A stretch of DNA of 64,000 bases, taken from Pontibacter arcticus (GTDB lineage Bacteria > Bacteroidota > Bacteroidia > Cytophagales > Hymenobacteraceae). The DNA is taken from assembly GCF_003284895.1 (NCBI RefSeq), contig NZ_QMDV01000001.1:275080-339079 (forward strand), given 5' to 3'. The notes under the pieces are model-generated. The model did not search any database, had not been told where the DNA came from, and saw only the letters and a list, made by a program, of their open reading frames with translations. The translations under genes were made by a program, and so were the position numbers. Within the stretch, counting starts at the first letter, position 1. Each line of letters starts with the position of its first letter. Below are positions 49,672 through 55,754 of this stretch, in pieces.

Positions 49672-51354
49672 GTGGGATGTAGTTCATGTTCTAGTGGCGG
49701 TTGCGGCACCAAAAAAACCAGTGCAGATGGCACAGAGGTGGTTGGTGGCTGCAAAAGCAACGGCGGTTGCAGCACGGGAGGCTGTAATCGTTTAAATGTA
49801 TTTGATTGGCTTAGCGACATGGAAATTCCGGTGTCGTTTGAGGAATTTGATATTGTAGAAGTAAGATTTAAGGGTGGTCGTAAAGACTTTTTCCGAAACA
49901 TAAACAGAATAGACCTGACTACGGGCGATGCCGTGGTGGTAGATGTGCCAAATGGCCATCACATCGGGTTTGTATCGCTTAAAGGTGAGCTGGTACGCTT
50001 GCAGATGCTGAAAAAGAAGGTGGATAACAACGAGGAGATCCGCACGATTTACCGTATCGCCAATGAGCGCGACATGGAGAAATTCAACGAAGTGCGCGAC
50101 CTGGACAGCGGCACCATGTACCGTGGCCGTGAGATCATTCAGCAACTCGGCCTCCGTATGAAGCTTTCTGATGTGGAGTACCAGGCTGATAAATCGAAAG
50201 CTACGTTTTATTATTCTGCTGATGATCGCGTTGATTTTCGTGACCTGATCAAAAAACTGGCAGAAGAGTTTAAAGTACGCATTGAGATGCGCCAGATCAG
50301 CCTTCGCCACGAAGCAGGGCGTTTGGGTGGCATTGGCTCTTGCGGCCGTGAACTTTGCTGCTCTACCTGGCTCACCGATTTTAAAAGCGTATCTACTACA
50401 GCGGCCCGTTACCAGAATTTGTCGCTTAACCCAAGTAAACTTTCCGGACAGTGCGGCCGCTTAAAATGCTGCCTTAATTATGAGCTGGAAACTTACATGG
50501 ATGCGCTCAAAGATATACCAACTGTAAACAGGCCATTACAGACCCGCCAAGGCGATGCCATACTTCAGAAAACGGATATCTTTAAGAAGATGATGTGGTT
50601 TGGCTACAAAGGCGATAATAACTGGTACCCGGTTCCGGTAGAGCGTGTGCACGAGATCATCCGTGAAAACCTGAAAGGTGTAGCGGTGGATAGCCTGATG
50701 CCGGTTGTGGTAGAAGAGCCGAAACAAAATGAGTTTGTAGCGCAGGTAGAGGGCAGTCTCGAACGCCTGGACGATAAATTCAAGAACAAGAAAAAGAAGA
50801 AAAAGAAGAAAAAGCCAGGCGAAGGCGGTACAGCAGCTCAATTTGAGCAGGCACTGGAAGCTGGTACGCAGGAAGCTGTAAGAACTACAGACGCACCTCG
50901 TACGGAACGGGAACAACGCCCGCGCAGGCCACGCCCTGAACGCAGCAATAACACGAACAATAACAGGAACAGAGAAGGCGCCGAACCAAGAGAACGCAGG
51001 CCGGACAGGCCACCGCGCGACCGACAGGAACGCCCGGAAAGAGTAGACAGGCCTGAAAGAGCTGAACGCACCGACCGTCCGGAAAGAGCGCCACGCCCTG
51101 AGCAAACTGCCAGACCGGAGCGCATTGAAAGACGTGAACGCCCGGAACGAAACGAGCGAAGAGAACGTGGTCCGCGCCCTGAAAGAGCCGATAATGCTGT
51201 ACGTGCCGCCAATCCGCCGAAAGCTGCTGCGCCTGCAAACGGGCCGCAACCTACCGGCGACCAGCCTGCACAACCAGCCAACAGGCAGCGTTCCAGAAAA
51301 CCGTTCAGAGGCAAAAAACCAGATCAGAATAAACCGCCACGTACCGATGCGTAA
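49672..51354 (+). CDS. ricT: RicT-like PSP1-domain protein with long basic low-complexity tail
   Basis: 560 residues from GTG 49672, which has AAGGAG nine bases before it. Residues 1-40 are cysteine-rich (MGCSSCSSGGCGT...GGCKSNGGCSTGGC), as in Bacteroidota RicT. The PSP1 domain follows, with FKSVSTTAARYQNLSLNPSK, GSCGRELCCSTWL and SGQCGRLKCCLNYE carrying the conserved cysteines. In Bacillus RicT belongs to a Fe-S complex (Y-complex) that stimulates RNase Y and RNA processing. After about residue 370 comes a Lys run and then nearly 190 residues of Arg/Pro/Glu repeats (RPERxxRPERAERTDRPE style), probably disordered and RNA-binding. It overlaps gldH by 8 bases, a conserved pairing. Confidence 0.9.
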   Translation: MGCSSCSSGGCGTKKTSADGTEVVGGCKSNGGCSTGGCNRLNVFDWLSDMEIPVSFEEFDIVEVRFKGGRKDFFRNINRIDLTTGDAVVVDVPNGHHIGFVSLKGELVRLQMLKKKVDNNEEIRTIYRIANERDMEKFNEVRDLDSGTMYRGREIIQQLGLRMKLSDVEYQADKSKATFYYSADDRVDFRDLIKKLAEEFKVRIEMRQISLRHEAGRLGGIGSCGRELCCSTWLTDFKSVSTTAARYQNLSLNPSKLSGQCGRLKCCLNYELETYMDALKDIPTVNRPLQTRQGDAILQKTDIFKKMMWFGYKGDNNWYPVPVERVHEIIRENLKGVAVDSLMPVVVEEPKQNEFVAQVEGSLERLDDKFKNKKKKKKKKKPGEGGTAAQFEQALEAGTQEAVRTTDAPRTEREQRPRRPRPERSNNTNNNRNREGAEPRERRPDRPPRDRQERPERVDRPERAERTDRPERAPRPEQTARPERIERRERPERNERRERGPRPERADNAVRAANPPKAAAPANGPQPTGDQPAQPANRQRSRKPFRGKKPDQNKPPRTDA

Positions 51355-53185: not shown

Positions 53186-53377
53186 TTAGATTTTTTCTAC
53201 GTTAATAGCGTTCAATCCTTTTTTGCCATCTTTCACTTCGAAAGATACACGGTCATTCTCACGAATTTCGTTGATCAAACCAGTCTGATGAACGAAGATG
53301 TCTTGGTTGGTATCATCAGCAACGATAAAACCGAAGCCTTTAGATACATTGTAAAACTTAACTTTACCTGTTTTCAT
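53186..53377 (-). CDS. Cold-shock protein (CspA family)
   Basis: 63 residues from ATG 53377 (MKTGKVKFYNVSKGFGFI). Single OB-fold cold-shock domain with RNP1 KGFGFI and RNP2 DIFVH, both complete. A single-strand RNA/DNA chaperone. The frame opens nine codons earlier, but the CSD family begins at this methionine. The 400 bases between it and the next gene (53378-53783) hold its leader and the leader of the low-complexity gene; no further gene is seen there. Confidence 0.95.
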   Translation of the reverse strand: MKTGKVKFYNVSKGFGFIVADDTNQDIFVHQTGLINEIRENDRVSFEVKDGKKGLNAINVEKI

Positions 53378-53783
53378 TATAATAAATTTTAAATAATGGC
53401 TCAAAGTTAACTATTTCAACCGATATAACAGCAGGTAAGCTAAAATATTAGCAAAAATAGGAGTATCAGCTTCAGGCATCTGCAGTTAAATAAGTTACCG
53501 TTTATGGTTTTATACTTTTCTCCAATCTCCGAAATCCGAGCTGCAGCTTTTCATAAGCTTCAAAATCGGCCGGATCGTATATAAGTAAAGTCCTAAGGCA
53601 ATAACCCTTGCACTTGCTGTTCGTATAGTTAAAGCGTTCTGTTACACTAAATAAAAAGGTGTGATCACCATTTCAAAAACAGTAACAGCAACAAAATACA
53701 AACCCCATTTGCTGCCTTCCTTATTTAAAAGCAGGTAGCTTTTGAAAACTAACTTATCTAAAATAACACAAGGAGAACAAACT

Positions 53784-55700
53784 ATGAAAGACTCAGAAAA
53801 AAACCAGGATTCGAATCAGTCATCAAACTATTCGAGTGACAGTTCAAACAACGCATCTTCCTCATCAGGTAATACATCAGGTGGCCAGAGTTCATCAGGC
53901 TCTTCGTTAAGTTCAGGATCAGGCTCTACTTCTGCCTTATCAGGTTCGGGATCTTCCTCATCAGGTTCAGGCTCACAGGATAGCAACAGCTCATCTTCTA
54001 TGTCTGGCTCAGGATCATCTATGTTATCATCCGGTTCCGGCTCCTCTACTTCGGGATCTGGTTCTAAATCATCAGGCACTAAAGCAAAATCGGACTCTTC
54101 TTCCTCAGCGAAAAAAATAACGAAAACACCTGATGCCAAAAGCTCAAAATCATCTGGTAGCTCAAGCAGTTCCTCTTCTAAGAAAAGTAGCAGCAATAGC
54201 AGTAACAGCAACAGTAACCAGGATTCTGACAATAGCTATGGCTCTATGAGCAGCAGCTCACAGCAAAACCAAGGCGATAACTATGGTAGCCAGGGTGGTT
54301 ACGGTTCATCGTCTCAGGGTGGCAGCAATTCTGATTATTCGCAGGGTGGCTCTTCGCAAGGCTATGGCTCGCAGCAGCAAGGTAACCAAAGCGGATACGG
54401 CTCGCAGGGCGGCTATGGCTATGGTTCACAGAACAGCAACTACGGTGGCCAGAGTGGCTATGGTTATCAGGGCGATTATGGCTCATCACAACACCAGGGC
54501 GGCTACGGTTCGCAAGGCAGCAGCCAGCGCAGCTACGGAAGCCAGAGTGGCCAGAGCAGCAGCGGTTCTTCTAACTATGGCGGTAACCAGGGAGGCTATA
54601 ATTATGGCAACCAGGGCGGCATGGAAGGAAACAGAATGCGTGCGCAGGATAACTATTCGCAAGGTTCTTACGGCGGCTATGGCGGCATGCAAGGCGGATA
54701 CGCTGACAGAGAAGGCGATGAGCAAGGCAGCTACGGCGTAATGAACGACCAAGGCGGCATGGGCAGCTACAACCAGCAGAGTGGCTCACAAGGCAGCAAT
54801 TATGGTAGCCAAGGTAATTATGGCTCACAAGGCAGTTCTGGCTCACAGTCTGGCTATAACTCCGGCAGAAGCAATTATGGCTCGCAAGGTGGTAACCAGG
54901 GTAATTATGGTTCTGGTTCGTCTTCACAAGGCAATTACCAGCAAAACTACGGACAAGGCGATTACGGCTCACGCAGTGGTAATTACCAGGGTGGCTACGA
55001 GCAAGGCAACTACGGCAGCCAGGGTTCGCAAGGCCGCTCTTCTTACGGATCATCTCAGCAGGGAGGTTACGGTTCTTCTTCGCAGGGTGGTTACGGATCG
55101 CAGTCTGGTTATGGCTCGCAAGGCACGCACAGCGGAAGCCACGGCGGTTATGGCTCTAATGTAAGCGGATCAGGAATGGGTAACTCCGGCAGATCATCTT
55201 CTAATTCTAACTATGGTGATTCTGATCGTTACAGTTCACAAGGTTCTTCATCCAGAGGCATGAGCGAATACGACAGAGATAACCGTGGTTCGCAGCGTGG
55301 CTGGGACTCTCAGAACTCGATGCAGGGCGGTTATGGCTCGCAAGGCGGATACGGCTCAAGAGGCGGTTCTTACAACGATGAGTACCGTTCGCAGAGCAGC
55401 AACAGAAACAGCAGCTACGGACAAGGCCAGGGTAACTATGGTTCCGGTTCGCAGGGTTCTGGCATGAGCGGTGGCTACAGCCAGGGCGGTTACGGCCAGG
55501 GTGGCCGGGGCGGCGACCAAAGCCAGTACGGTTCTATGGATAGCAGAACGTCTTTCTATAGCGATAATCAGGGCTCTAACTCCCGCGATAACTACCGTTA
55601 CGGACAGGAAAACCAGGGTGGCCGTTCTTCATCATCACGTAACAACGATGATTACGAAACGCGCCGCAGCAACCGCTACCGCGATTTAGATAGCGAATAA
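53784..55700 (+). CDS. FUS-like Ser/Gly/Gln/Tyr low-complexity protein
   Basis: 638 residues from ATG 53784, which has AAGGAG nine bases before it; a TTG at 53742 is a poorer start. There is no signal peptide, no membrane helix and no folded domain. Residues about 10-160 are Ser/Gly-rich with scattered Lys and Asp. From about 165 to 560 the protein is built of degenerate YGSQG, GGYGS and SQGGYGS units, with at least a dozen YGSQ copies. The last 80 residues mix Arg, Asp and Tyr (for example YETRRSNRYRDLDSE). It contains almost no aliphatic residues. This composition is that of the prion-like domains of animal FUS/EWS, so a phase-separating or stress-related protein is plausible, but nothing here proves it. 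No family recognised. Confidence 0.85.
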   Translation: MKDSEKNQDSNQSSNYSSDSSNNASSSSGNTSGGQSSSGSSLSSGSGSTSALSGSGSSSSGSGSQDSNSSSSMSGSGSSMLSSGSGSSTSGSGSKSSGTKAKSDSSSSAKKITKTPDAKSSKSSGSSSSSSSKKSSSNSSNSNSNQDSDNSYGSMSSSSQQNQGDNYGSQGGYGSSSQGGSNSDYSQGGSSQGYGSQQQGNQSGYGSQGGYGYGSQNSNYGGQSGYGYQGDYGSSQHQGGYGSQGSSQRSYGSQSGQSSSGSSNYGGNQGGYNYGNQGGMEGNRMRAQDNYSQGSYGGYGGMQGGYADREGDEQGSYGVMNDQGGMGSYNQQSGSQGSNYGSQGNYGSQGSSGSQSGYNSGRSNYGSQGGNQGNYGSGSSSQGNYQQNYGQGDYGSRSGNYQGGYEQGNYGSQGSQGRSSYGSSQQGGYGSSSQGGYGSQSGYGSQGTHSGSHGGYGSNVSGSGMGNSGRSSSNSNYGDSDRYSSQGSSSRGMSEYDRDNRGSQRGWDSQNSMQGGYGSQGGYGSRGGSYNDEYRSQSSNRNSSYGQGQGNYGSGSQGSGMSGGYSQGGYGQGGRGGDQSQYGSMDSRTSFYSDNQGSNSRDNYRYGQENQGGRSSSSRNNDDYETRRSNRYRDLDSE

Positions 55701-55719: not shown

Positions 55720-55754
55720 AAAAGCCACTCCCGCAAAGGAGTGGCTTTTCTTTT
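55720..55754. terminator. Terminator after the low-complexity gene
   Basis: AAAAGCCACTCC and GGAGTGGCTTTT with a 6-base loop, T-rich after; A-run before also permits use by the converging gene. Confidence 0.92.

Follow-up and report, generated by a model that had tools for sequence, protein, structure and literature searches.

The gene studied here lies in a window of 64,000 nucleotides of the Pontibacter arcticus genome, by which we mean the whole stretch of DNA that was analysed. It encodes a long, disordered, low-complexity protein, and the features at the locus are as follows.

53186..53404, minus strand: cold-shock-domain protein (csp), divergent neighbour, syntenic but not constant
53600..53628, plus strand: ECF-type promoter, AATAAC at 53600-53605, 16 nt, CGTATAG at 53622-53628
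53629..53652, plus strand: TAAAACGTTCTGTTACACT-like stretch directly 3' of the -10 box, conserved across most of the genus
53770..53775, plus strand: Shine-Dalgarno AAGGAG, 8 nt 5' of the ATG, read from sequence
53784..55700, plus strand: coding sequence of the 638-aa disordered low-complexity protein, ATG at 53784, stop included
53784..53807, plus strand: residues 1-8, the N-terminal tag, reading MK[DE]xEKNQ across most of the genus, pN/pS 0.08
54075..54158, plus strand: Lys-containing linker, residues 98-125, loosely conserved, pN/pS 0.50
54393..54485, plus strand: conserved island 1, residues 204-234, pN/pS 0.12
54585..54731, plus strand: conserved island 2, residues 268-316, pN/pS 0.28
55212..55391, plus strand: conserved island 3, residues 477-536, contains the core, pN/pS 0.14
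55347..55385, plus strand: family-wide core GYGSRGGSYNDEY, residues 522-534
55476..55595, plus strand: conserved island 4, residues 565-604, pN/pS 0.14
55659..55685, plus strand: C-terminal Arg/Tyr tail, residues 626-634, pN/pS 0.20
55724..55749, plus strand: terminator-like hairpin GCCACTCC/GGAGTGGC with T residues after it, read directly

The composition of the protein changes along its length, from 49% Ser, 8% Lys and 1% Tyr in residues 1-150, through 30% Gly, 24% Ser, 15% Gln and 12% Tyr in residues 151-480, to 11% Arg and 10% Tyr in residues 481-638, and all 638 residues are free of Cys; these counts bear out the Ser-rich N-terminal segment and the Arg/Tyr-containing end described in an initial annotation of this DNA. 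The description there of some 640 residues without a folded domain is likewise upheld: no Pfam domain was found in the window protein, neither Pfam nor NCBIfam matched any of 35 orthologues (0/35 each), and no PDB chain matched it in a sequence search at E ≤ 0.01. With a 35-row alignment as input, AlphaFold2 reached an average pLDDT of 39.2, and 615 of the 638 residues scored below 50; DSSP returned nothing. Such low confidence is as would be expected of a disordered chain. The longest hydrophobic run is 2 residues and the highest 19-residue hydropathy mean is -0.07, which supports the cytosolic location first proposed; an export signal, named beforehand as a finding that would tell against it, was looked for and none was seen.

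The description of FUS/EWS-like repeats needs one correction. In the window protein [GS]YGSQ (8, against 0.24 in shuffles), QGGYG (8 against 0.08) and YG (37 against 13.3) are enriched, whereas for the literal [GS]Y[GS]Q a count of 3 is no enrichment over the 1.7 that shuffles average. The spacing of its aromatic residues is more regular than in shuffled sequences (z -2.8; 0 of 200 shuffles equally even), as it is in 17 of 17 Tyr-rich members examined (z -2.3 to -4.8), although the same evenness in two of three Tyr-poor members means that it is not specific to the Tyr-rich ones.

A complete lack of homologues had also been named in advance as fatal to a stress role, and this is not what we found: by protein search the gene is present in 50 of 50 Pontibacter genomes, once in the window's own genome, and by profile and then synteny the family occurs in all six genera (g1 to g6, g1 being Pontibacter) sampled of one bacterial family. 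The 35 distinct genus-level orthologues, of which one is from Botryobacter ruber, range from 565 to 707 aa; all lack Cys, have 44-66 Tyr and carry a net charge of -10 to +5. Within the bacterial family a single-sequence search matched 53 of 200 genomes and a profile search 89 of 204, counts that understate the family since both searches miss g6 and g2, which were recovered via synteny. Run on 390 genomes from the order, a profile matched 71, all 71 of them within the one bacterial family (4 of 129 genera), and at eight RicT loci from eight other families no low-complexity ORF was seen within 7.7-9.7 kb. The apparent absence outside the bacterial family is drawn from these eight loci and from an order-wide profile that misses two member genera; so far, then, the family is seen in one bacterial family, as a single-copy gene. 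A plasmid search gave no match.

The reading frame also opens upstream at a TTG (53742), and it is the ATG start followed by MK[DE]xE that the 35 distinct orthologues have in common. The strong Shine-Dalgarno site noted at first annotation is present, and AGGAG precedes 35 of 35 genus-level genes as well as the g2 and g6 genes; it was not seen in the upstream DNA inspected before g3, g4 and g5 genes. Most of the 35 orthologues have a similar 3' hairpin, as judged by eye. The usual gene order is RicT, GldH, an EEP-family protein in some genera, often a divergent csp, the window gene and a convergent NmrA-like gene, which confirms both the csp and the RicT neighbours reported earlier. Where csp is present next door, it and the window gene have one intergenic region in common. 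The window RicT (49672-51354) bears a long Lys/Arg-rich tail, which looks like a local addition because 5 of 9 RicT matches outside the bacterial family stop at residues 381-387 of 560. Seven g5 loci (L131, L133, L134, L136, L137, L138 and L146) have none of the seven window neighbours within 8-8.5 kb, and the same seven keep the core and the promoter.

Within the genus, pN/pS is 0.08-0.28 in the islands, against 0.46-0.68 in the Ser-rich, Lys and low-complexity stretches between them (595 pairs each), values that serve as a ranking only because pS is near saturation (0.58-0.80) and the inter-island stretches align poorly. The core, [SN][RKQ]GGSYx[DE], occurs exactly once per protein in 64 of 64 proteins counted (35 genus-level, 20 from g3 and g5, and 9 from g2 and g6); this count omits 20 further proteins, each with a GGSY[ND]D core. 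In the g3, g4 and g5 proteins the core is there partly by construction, since the profiles that found them contain it. The independent test is provided by the g2 and g6 proteins, found by position, of which 9 of 9 carry it, at a shuffle rate of 0.05-0.45% each. Composition, in contrast, is unstable: 23 of 28 g5 relatives are 297-505 aa long, 3-6% Tyr, rich in Ala, Pro or Thr and strongly acidic (net charge -18 to -38), while the other 5 have 7-9% Tyr and a charge near neutral, so that a FUS-like make-up is a variable trait of the family. The suggestion that composition rather than sequence would prove conserved is thus contradicted, with constrained islands and a core in 64 of 64 proteins on one side and a shifted composition in 23 of 28 g5 relatives on the other.

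Upstream of the gene, at 165-205 nt from the start, the genus shares a block of the form AATAACC-N15-CGTATAG with a further conserved stretch behind it, and the promoter listed above is the sole AATAAC-N15-17-CGTATA site in the window, where 0.04 would be expected. Across the six genera, AAC-N15-18-CGTAT[AG] lies within 260 nt upstream of 83 of 84 genes, which are related and not independent, compared with 0.7% of 8400 mononucleotide shuffles and 0 of 84 on the reverse strand; the one miss is locus L139, whose called start may be wrong. The promoter persists in loci that lack csp and in those that have been relocated. In an excerpt of a study of Flavobacterium psychrophilum (PMC9723704), a CGT box at -10 is assigned to an ECF sigma factor, and the AAC-ending -35 box and CGT -10 box at such a spacing fit the pattern of ECF sigma factors.

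To see which other genes stand behind this promoter, we used a sequence-only model (R1) built from 33 promoters, of pattern-bearing genes only and with CGTATG variants excluded; because R1 was trained on promoters of the window gene family, its matches there are by construction. In the 50 genus genomes at E ≤ 1 it gave 84 sites in 49 genomes, 49 at the window gene and 35 elsewhere. Eighteen of these 35 precede SDR (12) or DUF892 (6) genes, with called starts 42-81 nt after the start of the site, the SDR targets being of the NF005214 subfamily. The 17 outside SDR and DUF892 comprise one before a small GNAT protein and 16 with single, other or no convincing targets. Six of the 35 are partial matches from model position 13 or 16, without a -35 box. 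Reversed, a step that was itself verified, and run on the same genomes with the same settings, R1 gave 28 sites, none before an SDR, DUF892, GNAT, YtxH-CsbD or DUF2382 gene, and 12 of these 28 lie within an open frame of at least 150 codons, compared with 8 of the 35 R1 sites. Applied to the other five genera (38 genomes, E ≤ 0.5), R1 found 37 sites, spread over 27 genomes; the window gene accounts for 23 of them. Of the 14 others, 8 precede DUF892 (3), DUF4142 (2) and YtxH-CsbD (1) genes and the gene of a second disordered Gly/Ser/Tyr protein (2). The last 6 are either doubtful or lead to small hydrophilic ORFs, to a lipoprotein-like ORF and to an unassigned one (4 of the 6 compared with Pfam). 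At E ≤ 10 in six genomes, one site lies before a DUF2382 gene, whose YsnF/AvaK domain falls below the NCBIfam cut-off. DUF892 and DUF4142 proteins are stress proteins, and the SDR subfamily presumably resembles B. subtilis YdaD. Taken together, these targets suggest that the window gene family very probably belongs to a general stress regulon.

The second disordered protein, rich in Gly, Ser, Tyr, Asn and Arg and 432-433 aa long, was met in g6 (L266 293-1591 in genome G059; L267 292-1587 in genome G079), with the same ECF-type promoter upstream and a GFFERIGHGIKDAWNSIAGDDE-like stretch near its end; relatives of it occur in 5 of 5 g6 genomes searched, its C-terminal part is matched in one g2 and two g3 genomes, and 11 other genomes searched have no relative. 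Two g5 loci (L254 and L256) have hydrophilic ORFs of 61 and 82 aa, without a Pfam match, behind the same promoter; these are possible small stress proteins.

Because its promoter resembles a stress switch and its relatives have kept it, the window gene probably encodes a stress protectant and is not junk. The stress role guessed at in the initial annotation gains inferential support from the conserved ECF-type promoter, which is common to what appear to be general-stress-type genes. The reading that we favour, and consider reasonably probable, is of a single-copy, cytosolic, disordered stress protein under ECF control that acts as a hydrophilin-like protectant and condenses where it is rich in Tyr. 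One could envision an ECF sigma factor turning the gene on together with a general stress regulon of DUF892, SDR-subfamily, YtxH-CsbD, DUF4142 and YsnF-like proteins, after which the protein would accumulate under stress and work as a protectant of the hydrophilin type, a step whose chances we place slightly above even. In Tyr-rich members, the window protein among them, the evenly spaced Tyr residues and the C-terminal Arg residues could then serve as weak stickers and permit reversible condensation; phase separation of these members is plausible from their sequences, and condensates as a working part of the mechanism we put somewhat below an even chance. The islands and the core may dock a partner or client, and the core as a docking motif likewise seems to us a little less probable than its opposite. 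For the family as a whole, FUS-type condensation cannot be the function, since low Tyr and strong acidity mark 23 of the 28 g5 relatives examined.

Much of the evidence for protection would also suit a chain that remains dispersed, holding water or forming a glass in the manner of hydrophilins and LEA proteins without ever condensing, its richness in Tyr being incidental. All 64 family proteins are free of Cys, with 13.6-35.0% Gly (23.4% in the window protein) and a Kyte-Doolittle GRAVY of -1.06 to -1.98 (-1.52 in the window protein); hydrophilins are defined, in an excerpt of PMC4190154, by more than 6% Gly, a GRAVY below -1 and a mean hydrophilicity above 1, criteria that by the same source are not sufficient by themselves, and the 64 lie above the first threshold and below the second. 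That acidic, Tyr-poor relatives sit behind the same promoter is also what one would expect of a dispersed protectant. However, a pure space filler would have no need of conserved islands and a core kept at one per protein, nor is the even aromatic spacing in 17 of 17 Tyr-rich members in its favour, and we regard this alternative as a serious one, though less likely than not.

An RNA-linked condensate acting with the divergent csp on mRNA at low temperature is unlikely. The cold-shock link was drawn from the neighbouring csp, and as synteny it stands, csp adjoining the gene in both g2 loci and, in a count that includes some genomes twice, in 74 of 86 loci; as a partnership it does not, since csp is absent beside the gene in 4 of 4 g4 and 7 of 7 g6 loci, in the seven g5 loci and in locus L083, where promoter and core persist, and Pfam finds no RNA-binding domain in a protein whose RGG count (2, against 1.4 expected) is unremarkable. 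We had considered such a partnership as the main reading and dropped it because g4 and g6 keep the gene without csp. Still less probable is a surface or secreted polymer, such as an adhesin or matrix protein. Ser/Gly-rich low complexity is common among matrix proteins, and gldH lies nearby, but there is no membrane or signal-like stretch, the N-terminus is polar and strictly kept, and NCBIfam, which includes export-tag models, gave no match. That the sequence is functionless and drifting is highly improbable, for while its inter-island stretches evolve fast (pN/pS 0.46-0.68), the gene is kept in 50 of 50 genomes at 565-707 aa, with islands at 0.08-0.28 and with its promoter and position retained.

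The protectant reading with condensation in Tyr-rich members has a bolder extension, which we offer tentatively and do not think the likelier outcome: that the protein is a dedicated bacterial condensate scaffold, consisting solely of a FUS-like sticker-spacer chain with short docking motifs, ECF-induced and held at one locus across most of the family, and so a convergent stress-granule-like material. If this were true, nature would have run its own experiments in the relatives that trade Tyr for acidic residues, altering the physics while keeping promoter and docking core, and the second, unrelated disordered Gly/Ser/Tyr protein of g6 would make the scaffold multi-component. Stress-induced disordered protectants are already a known kind of protein; a long FUS-like protectant under a general-stress-type promoter in bacteria looks like a new version of that kind, and it would be categorically new only if condensates were shown. 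Word searches of open-licence papers returned, among the matches listed, no paper on the window protein and no description of a general stress regulon in these bacteria, and a word search of excerpts of PMC11132505 and PMC10534466 found no Bacteroidota named. Two questions become testable: whether FUS-like stress condensates have evolved in bacteria, and what sigma factor is in charge of general stress in this group. Tyr-rich and Tyr-poor orthologues offer a ready in vivo comparison of sticker physics.

Among known systems, hydrophilins and LEA-like proteins resemble this family in their high Gly, low hydropathy, lack of Cys, disorder and stress-type promoters. The family differs in its length and in reaching 35% Gly, the maximum being 16.8% in the set given in the excerpt of PMC4190154, and Pfam searches of 35 orthologues gave no LEA match. 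Some relatives contain a string G-S-K-G-G that resembles the motif of the KGG repeat proteins, such as B. subtilis GsiB and E. coli YciG. Kinship with them found no support, PF10685 having no match at E ≤ 1 in 30 members or in the window's genome. In searches of nine genomes, PF10685 had no match in five from g1, g3 and g6 (G000, G028, G035, G051, G063) and was present in four from g4 and g5 (G057, G077, G104, G126); ten loci around KGG genes, when scanned, yielded one promoter-like string.

The apparent regulon overlaps in its kinds of target genes with the SigB regulon of B. subtilis, whose gene list includes ydaD, csbD, ytxH and ysnF (PMC7824861, excerpt), and with the EcfG regulon of alphaproteobacteria, which includes csbD and has GGAAC-N16-CGTT as its promoter (PMC7083833, excerpt), likewise an AAC-ending -35 box and a CGT -10 box at N16. 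It differs from both in its CGTATAG -10 box and in its phylum.

The FET family (FUS, EWS and TAF15) is defined by an RRM, a zinc finger and RGG boxes beside the low-complexity domain, and the window protein, with no Pfam domain and with RGG near expectation, does not belong to it. The low-complexity, prion-like domains of FUS and EWS in animals presumably share with the window protein a disordered composition rich in Gly, Ser, Tyr and Gln, evenly spaced Tyr residues and an Arg/Tyr part. Unlike them, it has no folded domain at all and no PDB match, its literal [GS]Y[GS]Q is unenriched, and it belongs to a family with conserved islands in which richness in Tyr does not extend to every relative.
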